Positions 3,958 to 22,070 of a stretch of 32,006 bases of DNA are shown piece after piece (the first letter of the stretch is position 1; every line of letters begins with the position of its first letter). A program made the position numbers and the translations under genes. Under the pieces are notes generated by a model. The model was not told the DNA's origin, made no database searches, and saw only the letters and a list, made by a program, of their open reading frames with translations. The stretch is from Novosphingobium sp. (GTDB lineage: Bacteria; Pseudomonadota; Alphaproteobacteria; Sphingomonadales; Sphingomonadaceae), in the NCBI GenBank assembly GCA_020446505.1, contig JAGREN010000079.1, positions 18,325-50,330 of the forward strand, written 5' to 3'.

Positions 3958-4610
3958 GCGCCATCGACATCCTGTTCGAGGACGGCGAGGCGCTGGTGAT
4001 CGACAAGCCCGCGGGCCTGCCGCTCGATCCGCCGCGCAAGGGCGGGCCGAGCCTACAGGACGAACTGCCCTTCCTGCGCCTCGGCTTTGCGCGCGAGCCT
4101 CAGCCGGTCCACAGGCTCGATCAGGACACTTCCGGCTGCCTGCTGCTGGCGCGCAATCCCAAAGCGCTGAAACGATTCGGTCAGGCTTTCGAGGAGCGCC
4201 TCGTTACCAAGCGCTACCTTGGCGTGGTCGCGGGCCAGATCGCGCAAAACGAAGGCACGATCAACCTCGCGCTCTCGAAGGTCAGCACCGCGAAGGACGG
4301 CTGGCGAATGATCCCGGCAAAACAGGGCAAGCCTGCCGTCACCCACTGGCGCAAGCTGGCCGAGCGGGACGGGCTGACGCTGGTCGAGTTTCGCCCTGAA
4401 ACCGGGCGCACGCACCAGATCCGGGTCCATGCCGCGTCGGGCCTTGGCGCGCCCTTGCTCGGCGATCCGGTCTATGGCGACGGCAAGGGAGCGGCGCGGA
4501 CCATGCTTCACGCAGCAGGGCTGACCGTGCCGCGCGAAGGCAAGCCTGACATTGCCGCCGCCAGCCCACTCCCAGCAGATTTCGCGGCACTCGGTTTCAG
4601 CGATGGCTGA
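3954..4610 (+). CDS. RluA-family RNA pseudouridine synthase
   Basis: This 218-residue protein carries the RluA catalytic motif HRLDQDTSG with the catalytic aspartate D56. ALVIDKPAGLPL lies ahead of it, and GRTHQIRVH follows in the C-terminal half. It is expected to convert uridine to pseudouridine in rRNA or tRNA; the target site is unknown. There is no S4 domain, and the protein is short for the family. The start chosen is the GTG at 3954, which overlaps the upstream TGA by the usual 4-base arrangement. The longer frame starting at 3762 would add 64 residues that merely read through the aminotransferase gene in another frame. The gene end overlaps arfB by 8 bases. Confidence 0.9.
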   Translation: MSAIDILFEDGEALVIDKPAGLPLDPPRKGGPSLQDELPFLRLGFAREPQPVHRLDQDTSGCLLLARNPKALKRFGQAFEERLVTKRYLGVVAGQIAQNEGTINLALSKVSTAKDGWRMIPAKQGKPAVTHWRKLAERDGLTLVEFRPETGRTHQIRVHAASGLGAPLLGDPVYGDGKGAARTMLHAAGLTVPREGKPDIAAASPLPADFAALGFSDG

Positions 4611-5010
4611 CCTTGTCGAGCGCGCTCTGGGCCTTTTCACCGAGAGCTTTATCGCTGCTTCGGGTCCGGGCGGGCAAAACGTCAACAAGGTGGCGACGGC
4701 CGTCCAGCTTCGCCTCAATGTCTACGCGCTGCGCCTGCCTCCCGACGTGTTCCGGCGGCTGAAGGACCTGGCAGGCAGCAAGATGACCGCCAGCGGCGAG
4801 ATCATCATTTCGGCGCGGCGTCACCGCACGCAGGAAATGAACCGTGCCGATGCGCGTGAACGGCTCTCCGAGCTGCTTGAAAAGGCGCTGGTCGAGCCGG
4901 AGCAGCGCAAGAAGAGCCGTCTAAACCGCGTCGGCAAGACGCAGCGGCTGAAGACCAAAAAGGCGCGCGGAACGGTAAAGGCCAATCGCGGCAAGGTGCG
5001 GCTAGACTAG
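4603..5010 (+). CDS. arfB: Alternative ribosome-rescue peptidyl-tRNA hydrolase ArfB (YaeJ-type)
   Basis: This 135-residue protein has a release-factor-type GGQ motif within GPGGQNVNK (residues 21-29) and a long basic C-terminal tail rich in lysine and arginine (about 105-135). That is the layout of ArfB, which hydrolyses peptidyl-tRNA on stalled ribosomes and inserts its tail into the empty mRNA channel. It lacks the codon-recognition domain of RF1/RF2, as expected. The ATG at 4603 is chosen because family homology starts at MADLVERAL. It overlaps the preceding gene by 8 bases. Its stop TAG shares the palindrome CTAG (5007-5010) with the stop of the convergent SDR gene. Confidence 0.92.
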   Translation: MADLVERALGLFTESFIAASGPGGQNVNKVATAVQLRLNVYALRLPPDVFRRLKDLAGSKMTASGEIIISARRHRTQEMNRADARERLSELLEKALVEPEQRKKSRLNRVGKTQRLKTKKARGTVKANRGKVRLD

Positions 5011-5897
5011 ACTTCCTGCTTGCCGAGGCCGATGCCGCCGTGTTCGCGGATGGCCGGGCCAAAACGTTCTGCCAGTCCTTCGATGGTCCAGCCGCCTTCC
5101 TGCTTCATGCGAGCAACCGGGCGAGGCAAGTCGAAGAAGGATACTTCCTCTCCGCGCGCTCCCATGATGTAGCCCGAAATGTCGGCGGCATCGTCGGAGA
5201 CCAGCCACGCAGCCAGCGGCGCGATCTTGTCCGCGCCCATGCTGGCGGCGACCTGTGCGACATAAGCGTCGTCGGATCCGTTGGCGCGCATCGCTCCTTC
5301 GACCAGCCGGGTCATTGCCGTTGGCGCAATGCAGTTCGCCCGCACCTTCGAGCGCGCCATGTCGAGCGCGATTGACTGCATCAGGCCGATGACGCCGTGC
5401 TTGGCCGCCGAGTAGTTCGACTGGGCAGGATTGCCGATGATTGCCGATGGCGAGGTAAACAGCACGAAGCTGCCGCTCTCCTGCTCGCGAAAGTACGGCG
5501 TTGCCGCCTTGCACATGTTGAACGAGCCATTGAGGTGGACGTCGATCATCTCGTCCCACTGCGCCCTGCTCATCTTGTGCCACCAGCCGTCACGCAGATA
5601 GCCGCCGGCATTGATGACGCCGTCGATCCGCCCGAACTGGTCGAGCGCCTGTTCGATCATGGCATTGGCCTGGCTCGCTTCGGCCACGCTGCCGAAATTG
5701 GCGACGGCCTTGCCGCCAGCCGCAACGATTTCATCCGCCGTGGCCTGCGCAGGCGCGGCATCCTCGCCGCTGCCGTCGGCAGCAACTCCGGGATCGGCAA
5801 CAACAACGCTTGCACCCTTTGCCGCGCAATAGATCGCCGTCTCGCGGCCGATACCGCGCCCGCCGCCGGTTACGACGATAACCTTACTGTCCAGCAT
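5007..5897 (-). CDS. SDR-family NAD(P)-dependent oxidoreductase (MFE-2-like)
   Basis: This 296-residue short-chain dehydrogenase has the cofactor motif TGGGRGIGR (10-18), VINAGG (94-99), the catalytic serine near S149 and the YxxxK pair Y162/K166 in NYSAAKHG. The acidic residue D35 after the second strand (VVVADPG) and the insert DGSGEDAAPA resemble the dehydrogenase of multifunctional beta-oxidation enzymes (hydroxyacyl-CoA dehydrogenase of MFE-2 type). The substrate is therefore tentatively a 3-hydroxyacyl-CoA. The ATG at 5897 is taken because the Rossmann strand starts directly after it; a longer frame to 6029 only reads through the lipoprotein gene. It overlaps the upstream lipoprotein gene by 14 bases. 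Confidence 0.88.
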   Translation of the reverse strand: MLDSKVIVVTGGGRGIGRETAIYCAAKGASVVVADPGVAADGSGEDAAPAQATADEIVAAGGKAVANFGSVAEASQANAMIEQALDQFGRIDGVINAGGYLRDGWWHKMSRAQWDEMIDVHLNGSFNMCKAATPYFREQESGSFVLFTSPSAIIGNPAQSNYSAAKHGVIGLMQSIALDMARSKVRANCIAPTAMTRLVEGAMRANGSDDAYVAQVAASMGADKIAPLAAWLVSDDAADISGYIMGARGEEVSFFDLPRPVARMKQEGGWTIEGLAERFGPAIREHGGIGLGKQEV

Positions 5898-6126
5898 TCC
5901 CCTGCGCTCCCGCTGCAATTTCGTTCTGCGAGGGAGCACTATCGGCAGCGGGCACGTCGCGCAAATCTTCAGGCGATAGGCGGCGCTGTTCCAGCATTTC
6001 CGCCGCGTCGTCGAGCGCGCGTGCTTCACCCATGGTCACGGCGCCCGGACCGGGATCGTTCTGCCCCTGCCCGCAGGCGGCCAGCAGCCCGAGACAGGAA
6101 ACCGCCAGAAGACGGGTAGCGATCAT
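5884..6126 (-). CDS. Small predicted lipoprotein
   Basis: This 80-residue protein opens with MIATRLLAVSCLGLLAACG, a signal peptide ending in a lipobox (LAAC, lipidated cysteine at residue 18). The mature part is short, acidic and rich in Ala, Gly and Gln, with no recognised domain. It is embedded between the DUF4112 gene (ATGA overlap at 6123-6126) and the SDR gene (14-base overlap), which supports it as a real, co-translated gene. The function is unknown, and I cannot tell from sequence whether it stays in the inner membrane or moves to the outer membrane. Confidence 0.75.
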   Translation of the reverse strand: MIATRLLAVSCLGLLAACGQGQNDPGPGAVTMGEARALDDAAEMLEQRRLSPEDLRDVPAADSAPSQNEIAAGAQGNAGQ

Positions 6127-6539
6127 CCCTCGATGATCCCGGTATGGGGATGATGCTTGTCGAGGTGCTTGCGGATGATCCGCAGGTTACGCGTGTTGGA
6201 CTGGAACAGGAAGTCGAACAGGTCACCCGCGACAGGGACCGCGCCCACGAGCGTATCGAAACCGATATTGCCTGCCATGCGCACAAGGTGCCATTTCGAC
6301 ATGCCGAGATTGCGCGCTTCCCACACGCAGTAAAGCCCCATAACCGCAGCGATGATGTCACCGGCGACCGGCACGAGACCGATAATCGAATCGAGCCCGA
6401 CCGGCATCTTCGTGCCCGGAACGTGGAAAGACCGCTCAAGCAGCTTTTCCATCATCTCGATCCGTTTCCGGACCGACGCGGGATCGGAACCCAGCGGAAA
6501 TTCAGGGCGCATCGGTATGGCACGGGCTTGATCGGGCAT
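6123..6539 (-). CDS. DUF4112 membrane protein
   Basis: This 138-residue protein contains two copies of a hydrophobic segment built around VPVAGD (in LDSIIGLVPVAGDIIA and FDTLVGAVPVAGDLFD), the hallmark of DUF4112. The basic motif NTRNLRIIRKHLDKHH follows near the C terminus. The function of the family is unknown. The ATG at 6539 is preceded by an AGAGGA ribosome-binding site seven bases away, which decides it over the much longer upstream frame that shadows the solute-binding-protein gene. It is the first gene of a likely DUF4112-lipoprotein-SDR operon. Confidence 0.85.
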   Translation of the reverse strand: MPDQARAIPMRPEFPLGSDPASVRKRIEMMEKLLERSFHVPGTKMPVGLDSIIGLVPVAGDIIAAVMGLYCVWEARNLGMSKWHLVRMAGNIGFDTLVGAVPVAGDLFDFLFQSNTRNLRIIRKHLDKHHPHTGIIEG

Positions 6540-6586
6540 TACAATGTCCTCTCTACGGGTGACGCCCGATTTGATTGGGCGCGTAT

Positions 6587-8095
6587 TTATTTGGGGCGCA
6601 TGGCCATCGGCATCAAGGGGTGCCAGCCCCATGCATTGGCGGCGAACCCGGTAGCGTCTCCCCGCACCAGCGACCAGCGGATCGGCGAGCCGAAGGGTAT
6701 GAAAATGTTCGCTTCGGTCAGCACGTCCCGTGCCTTGCGGATCAGTTCGGCCCGCGCGGCAGGATCGCTCGCTTTTAGGGCGGCGGCAAGAGCGCCGTCT
6801 GCTTCGGGCGAGCAGGCGTTCTTGCTCATCGTGCAGTTGAAGCGGTTGTAGTACCAGACGGGCCTTGGATATCGTGCCACGACATCGAGCAAGCGCAGAT
6901 CGCCGGTCTCGTCCTTCTTGGCGCGGCTGAGTTCGACACCGATCGAAGCGAAATCCTGCTTCAACCGGGTGAACAGCAGGTCCGAACCCGGCCCGGCCGG
7001 TAGCCATACGCTAAGAGCCGGAGCGCCATCGCCACCGTTCCGGCCCTGCCGCCATGTCGCTACGCGCGCTTTGGCATTGGCCCGGCGTTGTGCGAGCGAA
7101 AGTCCGGCCCAGCGGGCCTGGCCTTGCGAACCGGCCGCATCCGGTCCGCCCTGGGCATCTGCAGGCAAGGACGCGGCGATGTCGGCTCTCGCCGTCCACC
7201 CGGCCACGCCGAAAGGTGCAATAAGGGCATCGCGATCGATGGCCAGCGCCAGCGCCTCACGATTGGTCTCATCCGAAAGGAAGCCGCGACTGGACATGAC
7301 CTGCAGCCCGAAAAGTCCTTCGACCGGATCGAGTTGAATCGTGCCGCGAAGAATTCCTACCGACGAGGTATAGGGGAACGTCGAAATGCGACCGCCCAGC
7401 ACCAGGTCCGCCTCGCCTTCGTTGAAGCGGTCGACTGCTTCCTTGCCTCCGGCCGCCGAGAGGGAAACGGCTCTTGCGCGATCGTCCCAGTGCGAAATGT
7501 CCGGTAGTCCGAGTTCGACGGGCGGAATCGGGGTGAGCATGGCCACCTCTCCCTCGCGTTCGAGCCGCATCGGGCCGCCGCCAGACCCTCCGTGCGTCAG
7601 TCCCATTTCCGGCTGCGCCAGAAGCTGGAGCAGATAGGGGGCAGGATGCGAGAGCCGGATTTCCACCACCCGGCCCGCCATCTCGCGCACTTCGTCGACG
7701 CTGGCGAGATCGAGGCCAAGCGGCGTGCCGCGCAAGGCCTCGATGGCGGAACGCAACGAGCGGGCCGCAACTTTCGCATTCAGTTCGCTGCCATCGCGCC
7801 AGGTTCCGTCACGCAAGCGGAAGATGTAGCTCTGGCCATCGTCGGTAACGATCCAGCGGTCAGCGAGCGCCGGCACGATGCGACCCTGCTCATCGAAAGC
7901 CACAAGACCCTCGACTGTCGCCGCGCGCACCAGTTGACCGGCAGCAGAAAGGCGCACGCCGGATTCAAAAGGATCATCCGGCTCGCCTATGACGACGACC
8001 TTGACCTGCGAATCGCCGGACGAGCCGCAGGCATTGACAAGGAACGCCGCAATTGCGGCGACCGCAAACCGCCAGAACTGTTTCCGCAGCACCAT
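6587..8095 (-). CDS. ABC-transporter solute-binding lipoprotein, family 5 (peptide/nickel type)
   Basis: This 502-residue protein has a signal peptide ending in a lipobox (FLVNACGSS; lipidated Cys near residue 23). A SBP_bac_5-like body follows, with LVRAATVEGLVAFDEQGRIVPALADRW near the N terminus, the typical FRLRDGTWRDGSEL segment, and REALALAIDRDALI in the middle. Such proteins bind peptides, nickel-chelates or similar solutes in the periplasm and deliver them to an ABC permease. No permease or ATPase gene lies next to it, so its partner and ligand are unknown. It stands 47 bases upstream of DUF4112 on the same strand and could share a transcript with it. Confidence 0.87.
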   Translation of the reverse strand: MVLRKQFWRFAVAAIAAFLVNACGSSGDSQVKVVVIGEPDDPFESGVRLSAAGQLVRAATVEGLVAFDEQGRIVPALADRWIVTDDGQSYIFRLRDGTWRDGSELNAKVAARSLRSAIEALRGTPLGLDLASVDEVREMAGRVVEIRLSHPAPYLLQLLAQPEMGLTHGGSGGGPMRLEREGEVAMLTPIPPVELGLPDISHWDDRARAVSLSAAGGKEAVDRFNEGEADLVLGGRISTFPYTSSVGILRGTIQLDPVEGLFGLQVMSSRGFLSDETNREALALAIDRDALIAPFGVAGWTARADIAASLPADAQGGPDAAGSQGQARWAGLSLAQRRANAKARVATWRQGRNGGDGAPALSVWLPAGPGSDLLFTRLKQDFASIGVELSRAKKDETGDLRLLDVVARYPRPVWYYNRFNCTMSKNACSPEADGALAAALKASDPAARAELIRKARDVLTEANIFIPFGSPIRWSLVRGDATGFAANAWGWHPLMPMAMRPK

Positions 8096-8165
8096 GAGCG
8101 ATGCCTAGACGATTCTGCGACTTTCTGGAAAGTGCGAATGGGCGACCGGGAAACCGTAGCCGCGT

Positions 8166-8531
8166 TCAGATCTTGCGCAGGGCGCCGCCTGAACCCTTCG
8201 GAAGGCCAAGCATGCGATGCTTGCGCGTATAGTCTTCGTGATGTGCGTTGGTGGCAACCGGCGCACGAGCCACGATCGGATCGATTTCTTCAACGAAAGC
8301 AATGCCAAACCGGTCATCCTGGACCCAGGCAACGGTACCTTCCACCCAGCCGATATTGCGGATGTTGACCTTGACCACATTGCCGCGCGAAACCCTGACG
8401 CGCCCTTCGCCCATCATGCCGCCTGCCGAAAGATTGCGAACCTTGATCCGGTGGTCGCCGTCCTCGCCATCAACGCACACGTCTGCCATTAGGAACAGGC
8501 TGTCGCGGTTGAGATGCCGATGTTCGTCCAT
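8166..8531 (-). CDS. PilZ-domain protein (possible cyclic-di-GMP receptor)
   Basis: This is a 121-residue single-domain protein. The RxxxR motif is present as R5-HLN-R9. The second PilZ signature appears as NLSAGGM (a D/N-x-S-x-x-G variant), and RFGIAFVE closes the barrel. These are the residues PilZ domains use to bind cyclic-di-GMP. The C-terminal 30 residues are basic and probably unstructured. There are no neighbouring cyclase, phosphodiesterase or pilus genes, so its output is unknown. It is flanked by about 70 bases to the solute-binding gene and about 140 bases to dksA, so it is probably monocistronic. Confidence 0.83.
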   Translation of the reverse strand: MDEHRHLNRDSLFLMADVCVDGEDGDHRIKVRNLSAGGMMGEGRVRVSRGNVVKVNIRNIGWVEGTVAWVQDDRFGIAFVEEIDPIVARAPVATNAHHEDYTRKHRMLGLPKGSGGALRKI

Positions 8532-8669
8532 ACCAGTCTGGCCGATCCGTTGCGTGCGAGTTCAATAAATGGCGGGATCGGGACACGAAGCACCGTTCTC
8601 CGCATCGCGCACACCTAAACCATTCTGGTAAACAAAATCCCAATGCCGCGCGTTAATGCGGCTCAGGGA

Positions 8670-9128
8670 TCAATCGTCGCGCGAAACCTTTTCGCGGCGT
8701 TCATGCGCCGCTTGCGCTTCCACTGTCATGGTCGCAATCGGACGGGCAACGAGGCGGCCCAGCCCGATCGGCTCGCCAGTAACCTCGCAGTAGCCGTATT
8801 CCCCTTCGTCGATCCGGCGCAGGGCGGAATCGATCTTGGCGATCAGCTTGCGCTGGCGATCGCGCGTGCGCAGCTCGATACCCCAGTCCGTCTCGCTTGA
8901 GGCCCGGTCGTTAAGGTCGGGTTCGCGGATCGGACCGTCCTGCAACTGCTGCAGGGTACCGGCGGATGCGTCGAGGATCAGCCGTTTCCAGCCGTTCAGA
9001 AGCTTGCGGAAATAATCCCGCTGCGCTTCGTTCATGTAGTCCTCGTCCTCGGACGGGACGTAACTTCCGCCGATTTCTCGTCGCGCCTTTACCAGTACGT
9101 CGATTTCGTCAGCCAGCGCCGTTGCCAT
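8670..9128 (-). CDS. dksA: RNA polymerase-binding transcription factor DksA (one-cysteine form)
   Basis: This 152-residue DksA/TraR-family protein acts in the RNA polymerase secondary channel with ppGpp. The coiled-coil tip keeps D71-L-N-D74-R-A76, the same residues and numbers as in the E. coli protein. The zinc-finger region reads YGYCEVTGEPIG: of the four E. coli zinc cysteines (114, 117, 135, 138), only C114 remains, and the others are T, T and A. Low-cysteine DksA proteins are common in Alphaproteobacteria. The C terminus AHERREKVSRDD is typical. The gene stands alone with its own 5' region (see the candidate promoter at 9213-9241). Confidence 0.92.
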   Translation of the reverse strand: MATALADEIDVLVKARREIGGSYVPSEDEDYMNEAQRDYFRKLLNGWKRLILDASAGTLQQLQDGPIREPDLNDRASSETDWGIELRTRDRQRKLIAKIDSALRRIDEGEYGYCEVTGEPIGLGRLVARPIATMTVEAQAAHERREKVSRDD

Positions 9129-9212
9129 TCAGAAACTCCGATCAACAGTCCCAGCGTCGCTTTCCCTACTGCTTCGGGCATTCCCGATAACCCACGAGCC
9201 GTGTTGCCGCGC

Positions 9213-9241
9213 CTATAGTTGTGTGCCTGTGCCCGCACAAG
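9213..9241 (-). promoter_or_regulatory. Candidate sigma-70-type promoter of dksA
   Basis: Read on the minus strand, a CTTGTG -35 element (9236-9241) and a CTATAG -10 element (9213-9218) are separated by exactly 17 bases and lie about 85 bases upstream of the dksA ATG. The matches to consensus are moderate, so this is a candidate only. Confidence 0.35.
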
Positions 9242-9322
9242 CGCCGATAGGTGTTTGACACAGAAAAAGATCGAGCCGGACCGATCGCAAATCGCTCGCC
9301 GAGCGAAAAAGCGGAATCGGCG

Positions 9323-9337
9323 TTAACCATTTGTTGA
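9323..9337 (+). promoter_or_regulatory. CtrA-box-like site upstream of the Sel1-repeat gene
   Basis: The sequence TTAA-N7-TTGA (TTAACCATTTGTTGA) matches the alphaproteobacterial CtrA consensus TTAA-N7-TTAA in seven of eight fixed positions and contains the exact half-site TTAACCAT. It lies 68 bases before the Sel1-repeat ATG at 9405 and about 195 bases before dksA on the other strand. A DivK-type regulator, which acts in the CtrA pathway in Caulobacter, is encoded in the same window. Binding is inferred from the motif only. Confidence 0.5.
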
Positions 9338-9404
9338 CCATGACAAGCCAGCTTGCACCTCAAGGACGGGCAACAGGGGTTCTGTCCGACAGGGGGTTAT
9401 TGAG

Positions 9405-9746
9405 ATGATTGAGAATGGTTGGGCCGGGAAAATTTCGGCAAAGAATCTGAATTCCGCAGAACTCGATGAAGCGGGAATGTTCCTCGCAAGCTGCCTTGCT
9501 TCGGCGGCCGATGGCAATCAGGACGCCTACTATGAACTGGGCGTCGCTTTTTCGACTGGCAGCCACGGAACCTCGTGCGATCTGATCGAGGCGCACAAGT
9601 GGTTCAACCTCGCCGCCGTCGGTGGCCATGAGGAAGCGCAATTCTGCCGCGCCGAGATTTCCGATGAAATGACCGCCCGCGAAATCGCCGAGGCCCAGCG
9701 CCGCGCGCGCCAGTGGCTTTCCGAGACTGTCCGCAAGGCGGCCTGA
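9405..9746 (+). CDS. Sel1-repeat protein
   Basis: This 113-residue protein has one to two Sel1-like (TPR-type) helical repeats: AYYELGVAFSTG at about 40-51, then the diagnostic IEAHKWFNLAAVGGHEEAQ at about 60-78. The helical tail AEAQRRARQWL is also typical of the family. There is no signal peptide. Sel1 repeats mediate protein-protein contacts; the partner is unknown. The ATG at 9405 is preceded by an AGGGGG ribosome-binding site. It is monocistronic, convergent with the DUF482 gene, and sits behind a CtrA-box-like element. Confidence 0.82.
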   Translation: MIENGWAGKISAKNLNSAELDEAGMFLASCLASAADGNQDAYYELGVAFSTGSHGTSCDLIEAHKWFNLAAVGGHEEAQFCRAEISDEMTAREIAEAQRRARQWLSETVRKAA

Positions 9747-9753
9747 CGACTCG

Positions 9754-10893
9754 CTAGTCGCCCTTGCGAAAGGGCGTGCGTTCGCCAAGCCAGAACTGAT
9801 CCTGCGCAACGCCCTTGCGTTCGCGCTCCAGGAAATCGGCAATTGCTTCGCGAAAGCCCTGATGGGCGATAAAATGGGCGGAAGTCGTGCGCACCGGTTC
9901 ATAGCCGCGCGCCAGCTTGTGACCGCCCTGGGCTCCTGCCTCGACTCGGTCGAGACCCAGCGCGATGGCAAGGTCTATCGCCTGATAGTAACACAGCTCG
10001 AAATGCAGGAACGGCTTGTCGATCAGAGCGCCCCAGTACCGCCCGAACAGGCTATGCGCGCCGATGAAGTTCAGCGCCCCCGCGACGGCTTCCCCCTCCT
10101 GGAATGCCATGACGAGCGCGATCCGGTCTGCCATCCGCTCGCTCAACAAGGCAAAGGCATTGCGCGTCAGATAGGGCGTGCCCCATTTGCGCATCCCGGT
10201 GTCCTGATAGAACTGCCAGAACGCGTCCCAGTGCTCCGGCCTGATCTCGTCTCCGGTCAGGACGCGGATATCCAGCCCCTCCTGCGCACGAGCGCGCTCC
10301 TTGCGGATGTCCTTTCGCTTTCGCGATGACAGGGCGGCGAGAAAATCATCGAACGTCTCGTAACCGCGCCGCTCCCAGTGAAACTGGATGTCATGGCGGA
10401 TCAGCCAGCCGGCCCGCTCGAAAATGTCGATCTGCCCGTCTTCGATGAAGGTCGCGTGAGCTGAAGACAGCTCGTTCCCGCGGCAGACCTCCTCCACGCC
10501 CTTGAGCAGTGGCACGGCAAGACCCGGATTGCGCGTGAGCACGCGCGGCCCGGTTGCAGGCGTGAACGGCGCGGCAATCTGGATCTTGGGATAGTAATTG
10601 CCGCCAGCGCGATGAAATGCGTCCGCCCAGCTATGATCGAAAACGTATTCGCCCTGGCTGTGGTTCTTCAGATAGGCAGGCAATGCGCCCGCCAGCGAAC
10701 CATCGGCTGCCTCGGCGATGATGGGCAAAGGCCGCCAGCCGCTTCTGCCGCCGACGCTGCCGGAATCTTCCAGCGCGGACAGAAACGCATGGGAGACGAA
10801 AGGGTTGGCTCCGTCGGTCAGCGCATCCCATTCGTCAGCCGGAAACGAGGCGACAGAGTCCGCCGTGCGGATCGTGAACTCGGCATCGCTCAT
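9754..10893 (-). CDS. DUF482 / GNAT-fold family protein (FemAB-like)
   Basis: This 379-residue protein matches the DUF482 pattern. It has an N-terminal PFVSHAFLSALEDSGSVG segment, the stretch AYLKNHSQGEYVFDHSWADAFHRAGG, a central RKRKDIRKERARA basic stretch, and a C-terminal FLHFELCYYQAIDLAI and VEAGAQGGHKLARGY. The family is related to GNAT/FemAB acyl- or aminoacyl-transferases, and the substrate is not established. It is the last gene of a five-gene operon and starts by ATGA overlap with the phosphodiesterase gene. Confidence 0.85.
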   Translation of the reverse strand: MSDAEFTIRTADSVASFPADEWDALTDGANPFVSHAFLSALEDSGSVGGRSGWRPLPIIAEAADGSLAGALPAYLKNHSQGEYVFDHSWADAFHRAGGNYYPKIQIAAPFTPATGPRVLTRNPGLAVPLLKGVEEVCRGNELSSAHATFIEDGQIDIFERAGWLIRHDIQFHWERRGYETFDDFLAALSSRKRKDIRKERARAQEGLDIRVLTGDEIRPEHWDAFWQFYQDTGMRKWGTPYLTRNAFALLSERMADRIALVMAFQEGEAVAGALNFIGAHSLFGRYWGALIDKPFLHFELCYYQAIDLAIALGLDRVEAGAQGGHKLARGYEPVRTTSAHFIAHQGFREAIADFLERERKGVAQDQFWLGERTPFRKGD

Positions 10894-13456: not shown

Positions 13457-13523
13457 TGCCGGCCTTGACAACCATCCGCTCGCGCCTCTTTTGCGCCGCA
13501 TTGCATTTCTAGGAACTCGCGCC

Positions 13524-13763
13524 ATGGACCGCACAGAAGTCGACACCACTATCCGCACCTTGCTCGAACCCTTCAACAAGAAGGGCGTGGCAATCAGCGA
13601 CGGCACGAGTTTCACCGACGATCTCGAGTTCGACAGCCTCACCGTGATGGACTTCGTCGCAGCTATCGAGGACGAATTCGACATCATCATCTCGATGAAC
13701 CAGCAAGCCGAGATCGAGAACTACGGGCAGCTCGTCGACGCGGTGGTGAAGCTGCGCGGATGA
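13524..13763 (+). CDS. Acyl carrier protein dedicated to serine palmitoyltransferase
   Basis: This 79-residue acidic carrier protein carries the phosphopantetheine-attachment serine S38 in EFDSLTVMDF. It is not the housekeeping AcpP: the sequence around helix II differs and it lies directly upstream of spt with an ATGA overlap (13760-13763). In sphingolipid-making bacteria, spt is often paired with its own ACP, which delivers the acyl chain to the synthase. That partnership is inferred here from the coupling. The ATG at 13524 is preferred over a frame from 13491, which would add 11 unrelated residues. Confidence 0.88.
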   Translation: MDRTEVDTTIRTLLEPFNKKGVAISDGTSFTDDLEFDSLTVMDFVAAIEDEFDIIISMNQQAEIENYGQLVDAVVKLRG

Positions 13764-14959
13764 CCGACCTGTTTTCCAAGTTCGATGACATCATCGAGAT
13801 GCGCCGCGCGCTGCTGGCGACCGGCGTCGAGGATCCGTTCAACCTTGTGATGGAGCGGGTTCTTTCCCCTACCGTCGCCGTTTGCAACGGGCGGGAGACG
13901 ATCCTGCTCGGCACCTACAATTACATGGGCATGACCTTCGATCCCGACGTGATCGATGCAGGCAAGGAAGCGCTCGACCTGTTCGGTTCGGGTACCACCG
14001 GCAGCCGCGTGCTCAATGGCACTTACATCGGCCACCGCGAGGTCGAGGACGCGCTCAAGGAATTCTACGCCATGGAACATGCCATGGTGTTCTCGACCGG
14101 CTATCAGGCGAACCTTGGCATCATCAGCACGATTGCCGGCAAGGGCGACTACATCGTCCTCGACATCGACAGCCACGCCTCGATCTGGGACGGCTGCAAG
14201 ATGGGCGATGCCGAAGTCGTGCCCTTCCGCCACAACGACATGGAGGCAATGGAGAAGCGCCTGAAGCGCATCCCCGAAGGCGCCGGCAAGCTTGTGATCC
14301 TCGAAGGCGTCTATTCGATGCTGGGCGACATCGCCCCGCTGAAGGAAATGATCGGCATCGCCAAGGCGCACGGCGCCATGGTGCTGGTCGACGAAGCGCA
14401 TTCGATGGGATTCATCGGCCCGAACGGTCGCGGGGTCGCCGAGGACCAGGGCGTGCTCGATCAGGTCGATTTCGTGATCGGCACTTTTTCCAAGAGTGTC
14501 GGCACCGTTGGCGGCTTCTGCGTTTCGAACCATCCCAAGTTCGAGGTCATGCGGCTGGTCTGTCGCCCCTACGTCTTCACCGCCAGCCTGCCGCCAAGCG
14601 TCGTGGCGACTGCGGCTACCTCGATCCGCAAGCTGATGCATGCCGGGAACAAGCGCGCGCACCTGTGGGAAAACTCGCGCACCCTTCACGCCGGGGTAAA
14701 GGCTCTGGGTTTCACACTCGGCACCGATGAACCGCAAAGCGCGATCATTTCGGTCATCATGCCCGATCTGGAACGCGGCGCGGCGATGTGGGAAGCCTTG
14801 CTGCACGAAGGGCTTTACGTGAACCTTGCGCGCCCGCCGGCAACGCCTGCCAACATGACCTTGCTGCGCTGCTCGCTGTGTGCGGAGCATACCGAAGAGC
14901 AGGTCGAACGGATCATCGGTATGTTCGAACGCGCCGGTAAGGCCGCGGGGATCATCTAG
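13760..14959 (+). CDS. spt: Serine palmitoyltransferase
   Basis: This 399-residue alpha-oxoamine synthase condenses L-serine with a palmitoyl thioester to 3-ketodihydrosphingosine, the first step of sphingolipid synthesis. Catalytic residues are H139 (DSHAS), D211 and H214 (DEAHSMG) and the PLP lysine K245 (GTFSKSVG). Each sits exactly 20 positions before the H159, D231, H234 and K265 described for the soluble Sphingomonas paucimobilis enzyme, so the fold is fully conserved with a shorter N terminus. No transmembrane segment is present. It is coupled to acp. The stop shares CTAG (14956-14959) with the convergent gene. Confidence 0.95.
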   Translation: MTDLFSKFDDIIEMRRALLATGVEDPFNLVMERVLSPTVAVCNGRETILLGTYNYMGMTFDPDVIDAGKEALDLFGSGTTGSRVLNGTYIGHREVEDALKEFYAMEHAMVFSTGYQANLGIISTIAGKGDYIVLDIDSHASIWDGCKMGDAEVVPFRHNDMEAMEKRLKRIPEGAGKLVILEGVYSMLGDIAPLKEMIGIAKAHGAMVLVDEAHSMGFIGPNGRGVAEDQGVLDQVDFVIGTFSKSVGTVGGFCVSNHPKFEVMRLVCRPYVFTASLPPSVVATAATSIRKLMHAGNKRAHLWENSRTLHAGVKALGFTLGTDEPQSAIISVIMPDLERGAAMWEALLHEGLYVNLARPPATPANMTLLRCSLCAEHTEEQVERIIGMFERAGKAAGII

Positions 14960-15821: not shown

Positions 15822-16304
15822 ATGGCGGACACCGAAACGTCCGGCCAGCGCACCTCCTGCGCAGGCCGGAACCGCTTTTCCGAGTGGAGCATGCTGTTCC
15901 TCTCGGAGCTGGCGGCGAGCTCGAACGTGCGCGCAGCCGCTCGCAAGGCAGGTATCCACCCCGCGACGGCCTACGACGCCCGACGCGCCAACCCCGAGTT
16001 CAACCGGCAATGGCAGGCCGCCTTGTGCGAAGGCTACGACCATCTCGAAATGGAACTGCTTCACCGTCTGCGCACAGGTGAAGTAAAGCCCACGAAAGAG
16101 CAGAAGCGCGGCACTCGCCAGTTCGATAACGCCACCGCATTCCGCTTGCTCGCCGCGCATCGCGAAAGCGCGGCGCAGCATCGCGCCATTCTCGAAAACG
16201 AGGATGTCGACGCCATCCTCGCCTCGATCGACGCCAAGCTCGATGCAATGCGCGAACGGACGCAGCAAAACGCAAGTTCCGGGGACGCGGATGACCAAGA
16301 ATAG
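15822..16304 (+). CDS. GTA small-terminase-like DNA-binding protein (gp1 position)
   Basis: This 160-residue protein sits at the gp1 (small terminase) position of a GTA cluster. A helix-turn-helix-like segment (SNVRAAARKAGIHPATAYDARR, about 34-55) is of the kind small terminases use to bind DNA. The C-terminal half is helical and charged (ENEDVDAILASIDAKLDAMRER). It overlaps the large terminase by 14 bases. The frame is intact, but the particle genes it would serve are missing downstream. Assignment to gp1 rests on position and fold pattern, not on strong sequence identity. Confidence 0.7.
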   Translation: MADTETSGQRTSCAGRNRFSEWSMLFLSELAASSNVRAAARKAGIHPATAYDARRANPEFNRQWQAALCEGYDHLEMELLHRLRTGEVKPTKEQKRGTRQFDNATAFRLLAAHRESAAQHRAILENEDVDAILASIDAKLDAMRERTQQNASSGDADDQE

Positions 16305-17742
16305 GCGGCTGCGCTACCTGCTCTCGCTGGCACCCGCAGATCGTTTGCAGGCTCTGTCCAGCCTCAGCGACGCCGAGCGAGAGGAGCTGGCATGGCACTG
16401 GCGACTATGGGCAAGAAACGAACAGGTCGCTCCGCCGGGAGACTGGAGCACATGGCTGATCCTGGCGGGCCGCGGCTTCGGCAAGACTCGGGCCGGGTCC
16501 GAATGGGTTCGGGAAGTCGCGACATCCGACCCCACTGCGCGGATCGCACTGGTCGGGGCACCGCTGGGCGAAGCGCGGGCGGTGATGGTCGAAGGCGATA
16601 GCGGCATCCTTTCGGTCAGCCCGCCGCGTCGTCGTCCGAAATTCGAACCGTCGCTGCGACGCCTGACATGGCCCAACGGTGCTCAAGCGACTCTCTATTC
16701 CGCCGGGGAACCCGACAGCCTGCGAGGTCCGCAATCGAGCCATGCGTGGTGCGACGAGATCGCCAAGTGGGACAATGCAGGCGGGCGAGCACAATCCGCC
16801 TGGGACAATCTCGTTCTTGGTCTGCGGCTCGGCGATAGTCCGCGCCTGCTGGCCACGACAACGCCGCGCGCGGTTCCCTTGTTGCGCGCAATTCTGGCTT
16901 CGGACGGGCTGATTCTGACCAGGGGACGAAGTGAGGACAATGCCGACAACCTGCCGCCTCGTTTCCTGCGTGACGTGCGCCGCACCTATGGCCGGTCGGC
17001 TCTGGGCAGGCAGGAGCTAGACGGCGAACTGATCGAAGACATTGCAGGCGCGCTGTGGACCCGCAGCCTGCTCGAACGGTGCCGCGCCCTTGCGGCACCG
17101 CCAGAATTCACCCGAACCGTGATCGGCGTCGATCCGCCTGCTTCCGCCAGTGGCGACGCATGCGGGATCGTGGTGACGGCGCTCGGCCTCGACGGCGTCG
17201 CTCACGTTGTCGCCGATGCCTCGGTGCGCAAACCAAGCCCCGAACGCTGGGCCCGCGCAGTGGCCAGCGCAGCACAGGCATGGCAGGCCGACCGGATCGT
17301 CGCCGAAGCCAATCAGGGCGGCGCCATGGTCGAAAGCGTGCTGCGCGCCGCCGATCTCTCGCTGCCAGTCAAACTGGTCCACGCCAGCAAGGGCAAGGCA
17401 GCACGCGCCGAACCTGTTGCGGCGCTCTACGAGGCCGGAAGAGTGCGCCATGCAGGCGTGTTCCCCGAGCTCGAAGACGAGCTGTGCGGCCTCTTGGCTG
17501 GCGGCGAATACCAGGGGCCGGGCCGCTCGCCCGACCGCGCCGATGCCCTCGTCTGGGCCATGACCGAACTGATGCTGGGCCGCGCGGGCATACCCCGCGG
17601 CTGTTCACGATTGCCGCCCGTTTGCTCGGCTGGAAACCGGACGACTTCTGGACGGCCACGCCTGCCGAACTCGCCAATGCGCTCGCCCCGATCACCGGCG
17701 CACCCTCAGATCCGCTCGCCAGGGCCGATCTCGAAAAGATGA
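16291..17742 (+). CDS. GTA large terminase, C-terminus replaced by out-of-frame sequence
   Basis: This is a packaging ATPase/nuclease. Walker A AGRGFGKT lies at 59-66, Walker B AWCDE at 152-156 (D155/E156), and likely nuclease acids are D281 (GVDPP), E339 (VAEAN) and D416/D418 (SPDRAD). Family-like sequence continues to about residue 436 (LMLGRAGIPR, near 17598), close to the normal C terminus. The last 47 residues are then Pro/Ser/Arg-rich and correspond to the following chaperone fragment read in the wrong frame. All catalytic residues survive. The ATG at 16291 is preferred because the 29 extra residues from 16204 shadow the previous gene. It is a product of the deletion described in the findings. 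Confidence 0.85.
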   Translation: MTKNRRLRYLLSLAPADRLQALSSLSDAEREELAWHWRLWARNEQVAPPGDWSTWLILAGRGFGKTRAGSEWVREVATSDPTARIALVGAPLGEARAVMVEGDSGILSVSPPRRRPKFEPSLRRLTWPNGAQATLYSAGEPDSLRGPQSSHAWCDEIAKWDNAGGRAQSAWDNLVLGLRLGDSPRLLATTTPRAVPLLRAILASDGLILTRGRSEDNADNLPPRFLRDVRRTYGRSALGRQELDGELIEDIAGALWTRSLLERCRALAAPPEFTRTVIGVDPPASASGDACGIVVTALGLDGVAHVVADASVRKPSPERWARAVASAAQAWQADRIVAEANQGGAMVESVLRAADLSLPVKLVHASKGKAARAEPVAALYEAGRVRHAGVFPELEDELCGLLAGGEYQGPGRSPDRADALVWAMTELMLGRAGIPRGCSRLPPVCSAGNRTTSGRPRLPNSPMRSPRSPAHPQIRSPGPISKR

Positions 17743-17762
17743 TGGAACTCGACAATGGATGA
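17599..17762 (+). pseudogene. GTA tail-assembly chaperone (TIGR02216-type), C-terminal remnant
   Basis: In the frame ending with the TGA at 17760-17762, the translation reads RLFTIAARLLGWKPDDFW, then ATPAELANAL, and ends PLARADLEKMMELDNG. This is the pattern of the small GTA protein encoded just before the tape-measure gene (TIGR02216). Roughly 54 residues are present, and no normal start codon or ribosome-binding site precedes them. The frame continues upstream only into the terminase in a wrong phase. Its stop still overlaps the tape-measure ATG (17755) by eight bases, as in an intact cluster. The N-terminal edge is the deletion junction, accurate to about ten bases. Confidence 0.75.
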
Positions 17763-18320
17763 CGATCTCGAACCGCTGCTGGTCGAAGTGCGCGCCAGTA
17801 CCCAGGGCTTCGCGCAGGACATCGCCGGGTTGCGCACCACGCTCGATTCAACCCTGCTCGACGGCTTCGACCGCGCCGGCAGCGTGCTGGAGCGCGGGCT
17901 TGTCGGTGCGATCCGGCGCGGCAGTCTCGGCTTTGACGATCTCAAACGCATTGCGCTCAGCACGATGAGCGAGATTGCGGCGCAGGCGGCGCGCAACCTG
18001 TTCTCCAGCCTGCCTGGCGGCGGCATCGGCGGCTTGCTGAATCTTGGCGGACTGGTCGGATCGGTGCTTGGCCTGCCCGGCCGAGCGACTGGCGGACCGG
18101 TCTCTCCGGGCCGCGGCTATCTCGTCGGCGAACGCGGGCCGGAGCTTTTCGTCCCGACATCGTCAGGCCGCGTCGAGAATTTCGAGCGCGGTGCATCGCG
18201 CGATGTTCGCGTGTCGATCGGCATCACCGCACCGCGCGGTGCCAACGGGCCGGAATCGCTGCAACGTTTTCAAGCCGACAGGTCGCCAGCGCCGTGCGAC
18301 GCGCCCTGTCCCAATCCTGA
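17755..18320 (+). pseudogene. GTA tail tape-measure protein, frameshifted
   Basis: The frame from the ATG at 17755 encodes a small tape-measure-like protein. LGFDDLKRIALSTMSEIA and RATGGPVSPGRGYLVGERGPELFVP are characteristic of GTA gp11 in sphingomonads. After about residue 172 (LQRF), the frame loses family character and runs on to 18672. Shifting by one base at the T-run 18267-18270 restores SSRQVASAVRRALSQS and a TGA at 18318-18320, which is a typical family C terminus. One T has therefore probably been lost from a run of five. The rest (about 188 codons) is complete, and its start overlaps the chaperone remnant. Confidence 0.8.
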
Positions 18321-18340
18321 TACCTCGAAGGAGCACCACG

Positions 18341-18416
18341 ATGGCATTCTAGCTCGCCAGCAAGCGCGAGGGGCAGGCAAGCGACTGGATCCAGCGTTTC
18401 GATCCACGGTTCTGGA
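18341..18416 (+). pseudogene. GTA baseplate/DUF2460-position gene, N-terminal remnant with amber codon
   Basis: A good AAGGAG ribosome-binding site precedes the ATG at 18341. Codon 4 is TAG (18350-18352). Reading through it gives LASKREGQASDWIQRFDPRFWT, which I recognise as the N terminus of the sphingomonad GTA protein encoded after the tape measure. Homology stops at about 18416-18418, where sequence from inside the next gene begins. Codon 4 is probably an original TGG tryptophan. Only about 25 codons of the gene survive, so it is dead twice over. Confidence 0.72.
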
Positions 18417-18986
18417 CGCTTTGACGGAGCGCAGGTTCGCATCGGCATCGTCGACTGGGAAAGCGGCGAGACACTCACGCTCTACCATGGATCGATTGGG
18501 GCGGTCCTGGAACAGGACGGAACGTTCAGTGCCGAACTCGTTTCGCGAAAAGCGGAATTGCTCCGCGACCCGGTTCCTCGCACCAGCCCGACCTGCCGGG
18601 CGGAATTCTGCGCACCGGGATGCAACCTGCCCCCGCAGTATTTCACCTTCGAGGGCACCTTGGACCTTGTAGACGTCGAGACGAACAGCGTCGTCATTTC
18701 AACCAATGCCATTCTCGAGAATCTCGTCGGTGGCAGGCTGCGCTGGCTCGACGGTCCGCAGGCTGGTCTTGCCACGACTATCACCGGGATTCTGGAAGGC
18801 GCTTTGACGCTGGATTCGCCCGTAGATCCATCGGCGGGAACAGGAGCGAGCGTTATGGTGCGGGAAGGTTGCGATCATACCCTCACCACCTGTTCCGTGC
18901 GGTTCAACAACGCGATCAACTTTCGCGGCGAGCCGCACCTGCCGGGCAACGACCTGCTGACACGCTACCCCGTACCCGGCCAGTGA
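18417..18986 (+). pseudogene. GTA DUF2163 protein (gp13-type), N-terminally truncated
   Basis: The frame ending at the TGA 18984-18986 encodes about 189 residues without a start codon at its head. It shows RFDGAQVRIGIVDWESGE, LTLYHGSIGAV, the cysteine pair region CRAEFCAPGCNL, and the family C terminus NNAINFRGEPHLPGNDLLTRYP typical of DUF2163/TIGR02218. Complete family members are about 280-300 residues, so roughly 90-100 N-terminal residues are missing, fused to the remnant of the preceding gene. An internal TTG at 18558 could start a 142-residue piece, but without evidence of use. Its stop overlaps the GTG of the NlpC/P60 gene (GTGA). Confidence 0.8.
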
Positions 18987-19396
18987 GCGGCGCCGCGCTG
19001 GCCGGTGCGTGCGAAGCACTGGTGGGTTCGCCCTTTCGTCTTCACGGCCGCGATTCCGCGACTGGTCTGGACTGCATCGGCGTGCTTGCCCTGGCCTTGC
19101 AGGCCATAGGTCGGCAGGCAGATTTGCCCGATGACTACAGCGCAAGAACGCGCACCATACCCCGACTGAATGATATGGTCAGAAGGCTCGGCTTCACAGA
19201 TGCACAGGACCAGCCAATCGCCGGTGACGTGGTTCTCGTCCGGGTCGGTCCCCTGCAGCTCCATCTGGCCATTGCAACCGGCAATGACCGCTACGTCCAT
19301 GCTCATGCAGGACTCGGCCGGGTGGTAGTCAGCGCACTGCCAGACAATTGGTCGACAGTCGGTCACTGGCGTCTCGATACCGATTTCCAAGGATAA
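18983..19396 (+). CDS. GTA NlpC/P60-family cell-wall peptidase (gp14-type)
   Basis: This 137-residue cysteine peptidase matches the phage/GTA NlpC/P60 subgroup (TIGR02219). The catalytic Cys is C31 in TGLDCIGV. H94 lies in LQLHLAIATG, with VHAHAGLGRVV following (H106/H108). In GTAs this protein sits in the tail and cuts peptidoglycan during DNA delivery. The GTG at 18983 is chosen because it overlaps the DUF2163 stop by the 4-base GTGA arrangement; a longer frame to 18620 shadows DUF2163. The gene is fully open although its upstream partners are broken. There is no signal peptide, so it would act only as part of a particle or after lysis. Confidence 0.85.
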   Translation: MSGAALAGACEALVGSPFRLHGRDSATGLDCIGVLALALQAIGRQADLPDDYSARTRTIPRLNDMVRRLGFTDAQDQPIAGDVVLVRVGPLQLHLAIATGNDRYVHAHAGLGRVVVSALPDNWSTVGHWRLDTDFQG

Positions 19397-19402
19397 TCCG
19401 AC

Positions 19403-21583
19403 ATGGCTACATTGCTTTTCAGCGCCCTCGGCACGGCGGTCGGCGGCCCCTTGGGCGGCCTCGTCGGCGCTCTGGTCGGTCAGCAGGTCGACAACGCCAT
19501 CATAGGACAAGGCAAGGTCAGCGGCCCCCGGCTCAAGGAACTGGAGATTACCACCTCCAGCTACGGCTCGGCCATTGGACGGCATTTTGGCCGGATGCGC
19601 GTGCCCGGTCACATCATCTGGTCGACCGACCTTGTCGAATCGAGCGAGACGAGCGGCGGAAAGAACCAACCGGACGTCACCACCTACAGCTACTCGGTAT
19701 CGTTCGCTGTAGCACTTTCCAGCCGCCCCATCCTCTCGATCGGTCGGATCTGGGCAGACGGACGATTGCTGCGAGGCGAAGCCGGCGACCTGAAAGCCAA
19801 TGGCACGATGCGAATCCATACCGGCCATGACGATCAGGAAATCGACCCGATAATCGAGCAGATCGAAGGAGCCGATCTTTCCCCCGCGTTCCGCGGCCTT
19901 GCCTACGTCGTCTTCGAAGACCTCGACCTTTCGGAATTCTACAATCGCATTCCGGCACTCACCTTCGAAGTCATTGCAGATGAGACGTTCGGACTTTCGG
20001 AGATCGTCGAGGAGGTGGTCGACGATGCCGATGCGCAGGTGTCGCTGGACGGACTTTCCGGTTTCTCTTGCGAAGGGCCGCTGGGCGACGCGCTTCTCCA
20101 GATCGATCCGATATTCCCGATCGACGCCGATGCCAGCGGTTCGACCATGCTCTTTTCTCCCGAACGCATGCAGTCGGAGCCGATCAGTCTGCCAGAGCCG
20201 GCATTGTCGGTCGACGACGGAGATTTCGGTGGTGCTTCCGGCTACGCAAGACGGCGAAGCGCACCGCGCGAAAGGCCGCTCGAAATCCTGCGTTATTATG
20301 ACGTTGCACGCGACTACCAGCCTGGGTTGCAGCGCGCGTCAGGGCGGCCCGGACCGGGTCAGCCTCGCACGGTAGAGATAGCCGCATCGATGTCGGCCAC
20401 GACGGCATTTTCGCTGGCCGACAGGATGCGGCAAAAGGCGGACTGGTCCCGCGATCGTCTTTCCTGGCGCACCTGCGAGCTTGATCCAGCCGTAAAACCA
20501 GGTTCGCTGGTGTCGGTGCCAGCGTTCCCCGGCCGCTGGAGAGTTCTGGATTGGGAGCTGCGCGACAAGGGCATCGAATTATCACTTGTCCGCGTGGTGC
20601 CCGGCGGCACTGAAACGCCGCCACCGGCAGCCGTTGATCCGGGTCGCATTAACCCGCTGCCGGACGTGCCTGCTCCTCCAACGACACTCTCGGCGTTCGA
20701 GCTTCCGCCTGACGGGTCCGGAACTGCCAATACGGTTCGCATCTATGCAGCCGCTTCATCCAGCGGTTCGACCTGGTCCGGAGCTGCGCTCTACTCGGAC
20801 GACGGGAATGGTTCAGTCCAGTCCCTTGGCCCAAGCGGAAAAGCGCGCTGCGTTATCGGCACCGTATCGAATCCGCTCAACTCAGCCAGCCCGGTCCTCG
20901 TGGATCGGCAGAACAGTATTACGGTCGAACTGATTGCCGATGACATGACGCTGCTCAACGCCTCGGCGGCGCAATTGGCAGCTGGCGCAAACAAGGCGCT
21001 CGTGGGCGCGGAGATTGTTCAATTCGCCAGAGCAGATCCACTGGGCAATCGAATATGGCGTCTTTCCGGACTTCTGAGAGGACGAGGCGGAACGGAAACT
21101 GCCGTATTGGGCCATACGTCCGACGAGACCTTCGTCCTGATCGACCAGCGCACGAGATTGCTCGATGCCACGCGCATCGCTGCCGGTCCTGCATCGCTGA
21201 TACTGGCTGCCGGACTGGGTGATCCTGAGCCGGTGAGTTCCGCAATCGGCCTGCGCGGCATTTCGCTGCGGCCCCTATCTCCGGTCGGAGGCAAGATTGT
21301 CGCCTTGGCCGATGGTTCGCTCCAGCTTTGCTGGACCCGCCGCGCAAGGGGAGCCTGGCTTTGGCTCGATGGAGCGGAAACGCCGCTTGTCGAAGAGGCG
21401 GAAAGCTATCTCGTCACTTTTGGCGATCCCGCATCGCCTGTCGCGAATTGGACAGTATCCAGCCCCGAGCTTCTGATCGGAGCCGCAGAGGCCGCCGCCC
21501 TTCAATCTTCACTGCCGGCCGGTTCCTTCCACGTCCGACAAATCGGCAGTTTCGCCACCTCAGAAGCGTCGCTCCTGACCTGA
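19403..21583 (+). CDS. GTA/phage tail host-specificity (megatron-like) protein, gp15-type
   Basis: This 726-residue protein starts with a glycine-zipper-like segment GTAVGGPLGGLVGALVGQQ. It continues with the tail-tip pattern KELEITTSSYGSAIGRHFGRMRVPG, YSVSFAVALSSRP and IPALTFEVIADE, typical of GTA gp15 and related tail-tip proteins. The C-terminal half contains beta-rich segments (GRIWRLSGLLRGRGGTE, then FVLIDQRTRLL) seen in phage tail-tip proteins. It is expected at the distal tail for host contact and baseplate assembly. The frame is intact and follows the peptidase by six bases. It is shorter than the Rhodobacter gp15 I recall, and I do not see a separate TIM-barrel region. Confidence 0.82.
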   Translation: MATLLFSALGTAVGGPLGGLVGALVGQQVDNAIIGQGKVSGPRLKELEITTSSYGSAIGRHFGRMRVPGHIIWSTDLVESSETSGGKNQPDVTTYSYSVSFAVALSSRPILSIGRIWADGRLLRGEAGDLKANGTMRIHTGHDDQEIDPIIEQIEGADLSPAFRGLAYVVFEDLDLSEFYNRIPALTFEVIADETFGLSEIVEEVVDDADAQVSLDGLSGFSCEGPLGDALLQIDPIFPIDADASGSTMLFSPERMQSEPISLPEPALSVDDGDFGGASGYARRRSAPRERPLEILRYYDVARDYQPGLQRASGRPGPGQPRTVEIAASMSATTAFSLADRMRQKADWSRDRLSWRTCELDPAVKPGSLVSVPAFPGRWRVLDWELRDKGIELSLVRVVPGGTETPPPAAVDPGRINPLPDVPAPPTTLSAFELPPDGSGTANTVRIYAAASSSGSTWSGAALYSDDGNGSVQSLGPSGKARCVIGTVSNPLNSASPVLVDRQNSITVELIADDMTLLNASAAQLAAGANKALVGAEIVQFARADPLGNRIWRLSGLLRGRGGTETAVLGHTSDETFVLIDQRTRLLDATRIAAGPASLILAAGLGDPEPVSSAIGLRGISLRPLSPVGGKIVALADGSLQLCWTRRARGAWLWLDGAETPLVEEAESYLVTFGDPASPVANWTVSSPELLIGAAEAAALQSSLPAGSFHVRQIGSFATSEASLLT

Positions 21584-21611
21584 TCCAACGGCTTCGACAA
21601 GGAAACCTGAT

Positions 21612-22070
21612 ATGCCCGAACCATTCGCATTCGATAGCACGAGCCCTCGTTTCGAACTTCCCTTTCTGTTCGTCGGCCAGGCCCAGAAGGAGGCCTGGGT
21701 CAATGAAGCCCATGCCCGGATCGACGTTCTCCTCCACTGTTCCGTCGAGGGTGAACTGACCGAGCCACCGCTCACGCCGGCAGATGGCGAGTCATGGATC
21801 GTCGCAACCCCTGCGACAGGCCTTTGGGCGGGAAAGGACGGAATGATCGCCGCCAGGCAGGCAGACAACTGGCTGTTCGTCTCCCCCAGGGAAGGTATGC
21901 GGATCTTCGACAAATCAACGCGCCAGGAACGGCTTTTCACGTCCGCATGGCAAACGCCGAATGTACCGGTGGAACCAACCGGCGGATCGGTAGTTGATAG
22001 CGAAGCACGAGCCGTTCTCGCTGAACTGATCTCCGCGCTTCGAGTTTCCGGCGTATTTCCGGAGATTTAA
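21612..22070 (+). CDS. DUF2793 domain protein at the end of the GTA cluster
   Basis: This 152-residue protein matches DUF2793: PRFELPFLFVGQAQKEAWVNEA near the N terminus, then PADGESWIVATPATGLWAGKDGMIA, and LFVSPREGMRIFD. The family lies at the 3' end of many alphaproteobacterial GTA/prophage tail regions, where it may be a tail-fibre or adhesin component; its exact role is unknown. It begins 28 bases after the gp15-type gene and is open throughout. The C-terminal 30 residues (LAELISALRVSGVF) form a short helix common to phage fibre-associated proteins. Confidence 0.83.
   Translation: MPEPFAFDSTSPRFELPFLFVGQAQKEAWVNEAHARIDVLLHCSVEGELTEPPLTPADGESWIVATPATGLWAGKDGMIAARQADNWLFVSPREGMRIFDKSTRQERLFTSAWQTPNVPVEPTGGSVVDSEARAVLAELISALRVSGVFPEI

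Follow-up and report, generated by a model that had tools for sequence, protein, structure and literature searches.

Gene transfer agents (GTAs) of Alphaproteobacteria are repeatedly pseudogenized and lost, as stated in the consulted part of PMC10883770, where pseudogenized clusters are partial, with genes lost, and are read as possible recent cheater lineages; a cluster is counted there as complete at 14 of 17 genes. Incomplete GTA clusters are abundant according to the consulted part of PMC9765227, which adds that in some of them genes may have been replaced and not lost, and assigns gafA to the DUF6456 proteins. No paper on incomplete gene transfer agent clusters in Novosphingobium was found by title and abstract. 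Here we describe such a cluster in a stretch of 32,006 nt (the window, C103:18325-50330) from a Novosphingobium draft genome (G000) of 3.18 Mb in 178 contigs, with 94.2% completeness.

Results

An RcGTA-like cluster with an altered gene order

Family profile matches and comparison with the locus of N. marinum, on which the gene assignments rest, placed an RcGTA-like cluster at 15822-22070 on the + strand of the window (Table 1). For its genes we use the names g1 to g15, following R. capsulatus usage. The order is g1, g2, g10.1, g11, a g12 remnant, a g13 fragment, g14, g15 and a DUF2793 protein. Six components thus stand in canonical RcGTA order (the GTA-type terminase, g10.1, the tape measure, g13 as a fragment, g14 and g15), and the portal, protease, major capsid and major tail genes are absent from the window. 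Intact Novosphingobium clusters, such as those of N. marinum DSM 29043 (L004) and HKST-UBA125 (L003), have the same gene order at both cluster ends; by comparison with them, the window has g3 to g10 and most of g12 deleted and a startless g13. Just upstream of the cluster, at 13491-14959, lie a carrier-protein-like ORF and a serine palmitoyltransferase-like ORF, both named by eye. Downstream, the window has an OTC gene, which is found downstream on the GTA contigs of G110, G111, G152, G190 and G026 too.

Table 1. Features of the GTA cluster in the window, with the evidence for each
Feature	Position	Strand	Evidence
g1, small terminase-like, open	15822..16304	+	phrog_4044 terminase small subunit, E 6e-11
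g2, large terminase; homology ends at 17598, then 47 codons out of frame	16291..17742	+	Terminase_6N, Terminase_6C; N. marinum alignment
Junction 1, probable deletion of portal to g10 and the g10.1 start	17583..17621	+	protein homology narrows it to 17598-17610
g10.1, tail assembly chaperone, first ~14 codons gone	17610..17762	+	Phage_TAC_6/TIGR02216
g11, tape measure; reference residues 1-176 in frame, last ~14 in another frame	17755..18311	+	
g12 remnant, 27 of 777 codons, codon 4 a stop	18341..18421	+	comparison with L003 and N. marinum
Junction 2, probable deletion of ~2.5 kb of g12 and g13	18417..18429	+	comparison with L003
g13 fragment, startless, first ~76-88 codons gone	18429..18986	+	TIGR02218, BR0599
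g14, NlpC/P60 peptidase, open	18983..19396	+	family profiles, N. marinum comparison
g15, megatron-like tail protein, 726 aa	19403..21583	+	normal length by genus relatives
DUF2793 protein, tail-fibre-like, open	21612..22070	+	family profile

The terminase is joined to the tail chaperone

The original prediction, made from the window's sequence, held that a deletion of several kilobases had removed the head module and left a terminase with a scrambled 47-residue tail. Residues 1-438 of the 442 of the N. marinum GTA terminase align at 16291-17598, so that the protein loses its last few residues only, a point absent from the original prediction, and its frame continues for 47 codons past the homology to a stop at 17740-17742. 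In a different frame, reference residues 15-63 of g10.1 align at 17610-17759; this fragment matches the profiles Phage_TAC_6 (E 1e-13) and TIGR02216 (E 1.6e-7; its 31.5 bits lie below the curated cut-off of 56.1). The tape measure has its ATG at 17755 and shares the last 8 bases of g10.1, stop included, the same overlap as in the N. marinum locus. The predicted end of the terminase near 17598, its scrambled tail, the TIGR02216-type fragment a few bases on in another frame and the correctly overlapping tape-measure start were therefore all recovered. The portal, protease, capsid, adaptor, major tail and further chaperone genes, likewise predicted to be missing, could not be found in the window: a tblastn search of the whole of it with g3, g4, g5, g6, g8, g9 and g10 of N. 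marinum returned chance matches only (best E 0.29).

The size of the loss was estimated from related loci. DNA homology to L003 ends at 17582 and restarts at 17622, points that lie ~5.7 kb apart in L003, and the gap between the two halves is 5,093-6,529 bp in 40 genus genomes, chosen by eye among the matches listed with both halves on one contig; the junction region as such was matched in at least 155 of the 195 genus genomes, the window's own included. The terminase search yielded 318 confirmed candidates, the best 80 of which were kept. Terminase and tape measure are both present on 64 of these best 80 loci, at a median distance of 5,438 bp as opposed to 157 bp in the window, a difference that argues against a chance origin of the junction. 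All seven intervening genes are kept by 62 of the 64, the exceptions being L034, which carries a deletion, and L068, in which g8 alone went undetected. The other 16 of the best 80 show no tape-measure match, and three of them (L023, L073 and L074) are deletions. A ~5.5 kb deletion joining g2 to g10.1 is thus the supported and best reading of junction 1. Microhomology of a few bases at either junction is possible, the ancestral sequence being too diverged to tell.

Head genes were sought elsewhere in the genome

Split gene sets occur in some phages and GTAs, and the head genes might accordingly lie elsewhere in the genome, with the terminase-chaperone junction as a working arrangement. The portal and the capsid were looked for in the whole genome, and protease, g6, g8, major tail and g10 within the window. 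Neither the TIGR01554 capsid profile (which matches in 5 of 14 control genomes) nor the L003 capsid found a match in the window's own genome, and nor did the L003 portal, which matched in 5/5 relatives in the same search. The L003 capsid matches 129/195 genus genomes, some of them with weaker phage-type matches only. G104 is among the latter: its g1, g2 and portal share a contig, g6 to g12 stand on a second one, and a gap separates the two. A capsid of GTA type did not turn up in G104, its only match being of phage type, at 43%; the contig gap probably explains this missing capsid.

One portal gene (PF04860, the sole one in the genome) does exist, on contig C100. We rejected it as a relocated GTA head, as its own Terminase_6 gene adjoins it and it gives no match to the GTA portal query. 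This separate phage-like unit (L001, G000:C100:35424-39068) holds the terminase, the portal and an ORF that resembles a DNA methyltransferase by eye. That the ~6% of the genome lacking from the draft conceals a head module is unlikely. Moreover, a junction like the window's was found in none of the relatives examined, let alone a conserved one with head genes encoded elsewhere, and g12 and g13 are broken too. A split by design is therefore largely refuted and extremely improbable; the deletion stands as the preferred reading, and the proposed search for a second head module revealed no GTA portal or capsid.

A DUF6456 gene, of the family of the GTA activator GafA, remains at G000:C134:6915-7295 (L118) in the genome of the broken particle genes and is the only one there. 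Its retention counts against a reading of the cluster as inactivated.

Further lesions in the cluster

Three lesions had not been mentioned in the original prediction. In a second deletion, of ~2.5 kb by L003 spacing, g12 is fused after ~27 codons to the interior of g13; the fourth codon of g12 is a stop; and g11 is out of frame over its C-terminal ~14 residues, a stretch that by itself gives E 0.13. From the sequence, the cluster is a multiply broken remnant, with two deletions, an early g12 stop and an out-of-frame g11 end. A third deletion, in g15, was considered for its 726 aa against the 1299 positions of the megatron model and rejected, as the protein aligns over nearly its whole length with those of G110, G152, G026, G078 and most other matches listed. 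In N. marinum, g12 (L004:17217-19550) is a 777-aa fusion of NCTSP_N, NCTSP TIM barrel and DUF2460; comparing this fusion with the ~726-aa g15 and the 1299-position model, we infer that a TIM-barrel part may have shifted between tail genes.

In a fragmented draft of 178 contigs, an assembler could have skipped the head genes and joined their flanks. The longest exact within-window repeats touching junctions 1 and 2 are 11 and 10 bases, respectively, which is short for a repeat-driven misjoin. Such an artefact would also have to account for two separate deletions and two small lesions in one cluster, and the L003 capsid and portal proteins are on no other contig of the genome. As other genomes, on long contigs, show similar deletions placed differently (see below), we consider a misassembly very unlikely and a genuine double deletion the better account.

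The lesions are probably recent

The whole cluster is present in the nearest relative, G110 (the source of L003), and the window groups with L003 on the terminase tree with support of 100/95, which places the loss on the window's own terminal branch. To compare constraint, unique amino-acid changes were counted at codons with an identical amino acid in all outgroups used. The surviving cluster genes have 33 such changes in the window and 35 in G110, and the control set of six genes has 17 and 14 (Fisher p 0.67); two of the six, LDtrans and SPT, add no codons because their outgroups were too few. No single gene reaches p 0.05, the lowest being g14 (1 vs 7, p 0.07), and the broken genes behave like the rest (g11, 1 vs 4; g13, 2 vs 2). 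Relaxed selection as proof of old decay was thus not found. Its absence from the surviving genes is what recent damage or a kept function would give and old decay would not, and suggests that the lesions, and with them the decay, are probably recent.

Kept function would mean that the surviving genes found another use after particle loss; g14, g15 and the DUF2793 protein, for instance, could act on the cell wall or as adhesins. Consistent with this, g1, most of g2, g14, g15 and the DUF2793 gene are open and show no acceleration. However, the broken g11 and g13 are likewise unaccelerated, which makes lasting selection on the pieces less likely and lets recent damage explain all of them, and a terminase without a portal has no evident use. 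We therefore regard another use as unlikely and favor recent damage.

Other Novosphingobium clusters are truncated at different points

Thirteen loci were inspected closely, among them L126 and L034 from one genome and L112 as an intact comparison. Seven other clusters with internal deletions emerged: L034/G081 (portal to tape measure, and g13 to g15), L074 (capsid to g15), L073 and L023 (both portal to DUF2793), L127/G121 (portal to g6), L129/G003 (portal to g14) and L125/G050 (terminase start to g9). Two further candidates, L138 (G107) and L139 (G184), were rejected as deletions, since they start or finish inside the cluster at contig ends; L067, which runs off the locus end, and L045, with scattered frame breaks that are maybe assembly errors, were left out of the set. 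Like the window, the seven have internal deletions with the outer cluster ends retained. Their end points differ in each, but the portal ends near residue 253 in both L034 and L127. In L127 (G121:C42, 3184-4185), the portal to about that residue and g6 form an in-frame fusion of 334 codons, with protease and capsid removed.

Truncated clusters account for seven rows of the terminase tree (the window's among them; G050 lacks the gene). These rows need 7 changes, at least five of which are forced by well-supported branches. Shuffled labels need a mean of 6.8 changes, with 500/500 shuffles as low; because random labels need about as many, the truncated rows are simply scattered rather than clustered. 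Most truncated loci were found via the terminase, so losses that remove this gene are under-counted.

Unlike the window, G050 retains an open tail module: L125 (G050:C2:46000-62000, ~2093-10347, minus strand) holds g1, a short terminase start, g9, g10, g10.1, g11-g15 and DUF2793 without internal stops. This tail-only cluster might make headless, tailocin-like tails.

Discussion

The window very probably holds a recently inactivated RcGTA-like cluster, one orthologous to those of close relatives that lack its inactivating lesions. A ~5.5 kb deletion on the terminal branch would have removed portal to g10 and the g10.1 start, a ~2.5 kb deletion would have joined the g12 start to the interior of g13, and g11 and g12 carry small lesions besides; the cost to producing cells, or plain drift, may have let these become fixed. 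Because portal, capsid, major tail, g12 and an entire g13 are missing, a working particle is not to be expected, and particle production has presumably stopped in this lineage. The cluster also falls short of the 14 of 17 genes by which functional GTAs are recognized.

GTA pseudogenization is already in print, and the window is a well-resolved further example. Compared with the pseudogenized clusters in the consulted part of PMC10883770, it resolves single lesions, and its remaining genes show no loosening of constraint so far. The warning in the consulted part of PMC9765227 that replacement genes occur in seemingly incomplete clusters may count against reading such a cluster as GTA loss. It is tempting to view the window as a GTA "cheater" lineage just after ceasing particle production, with head and baseplate genes deleted, the rest undrifted and a GafA-type regulator kept, in a genus where loss recurs with different deletions, as if repeatedly favored; we hold this view only tentatively and think it doubtful.

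Taken alone, the window offers nothing unusual for a degraded element: it is a clear and rather ordinary instance of GTA decay and contributes one more GTA loss, resolved and probably recent. The tail-only cluster of G050 is the better lead. Many relatives still carry the head genes of the virus-like DNA-transfer particle. Together with the seven other truncated clusters, the window recommends Novosphingobium as a genus in which to test whether lineages that no longer produce GTAs emerge and spread as cheaters.
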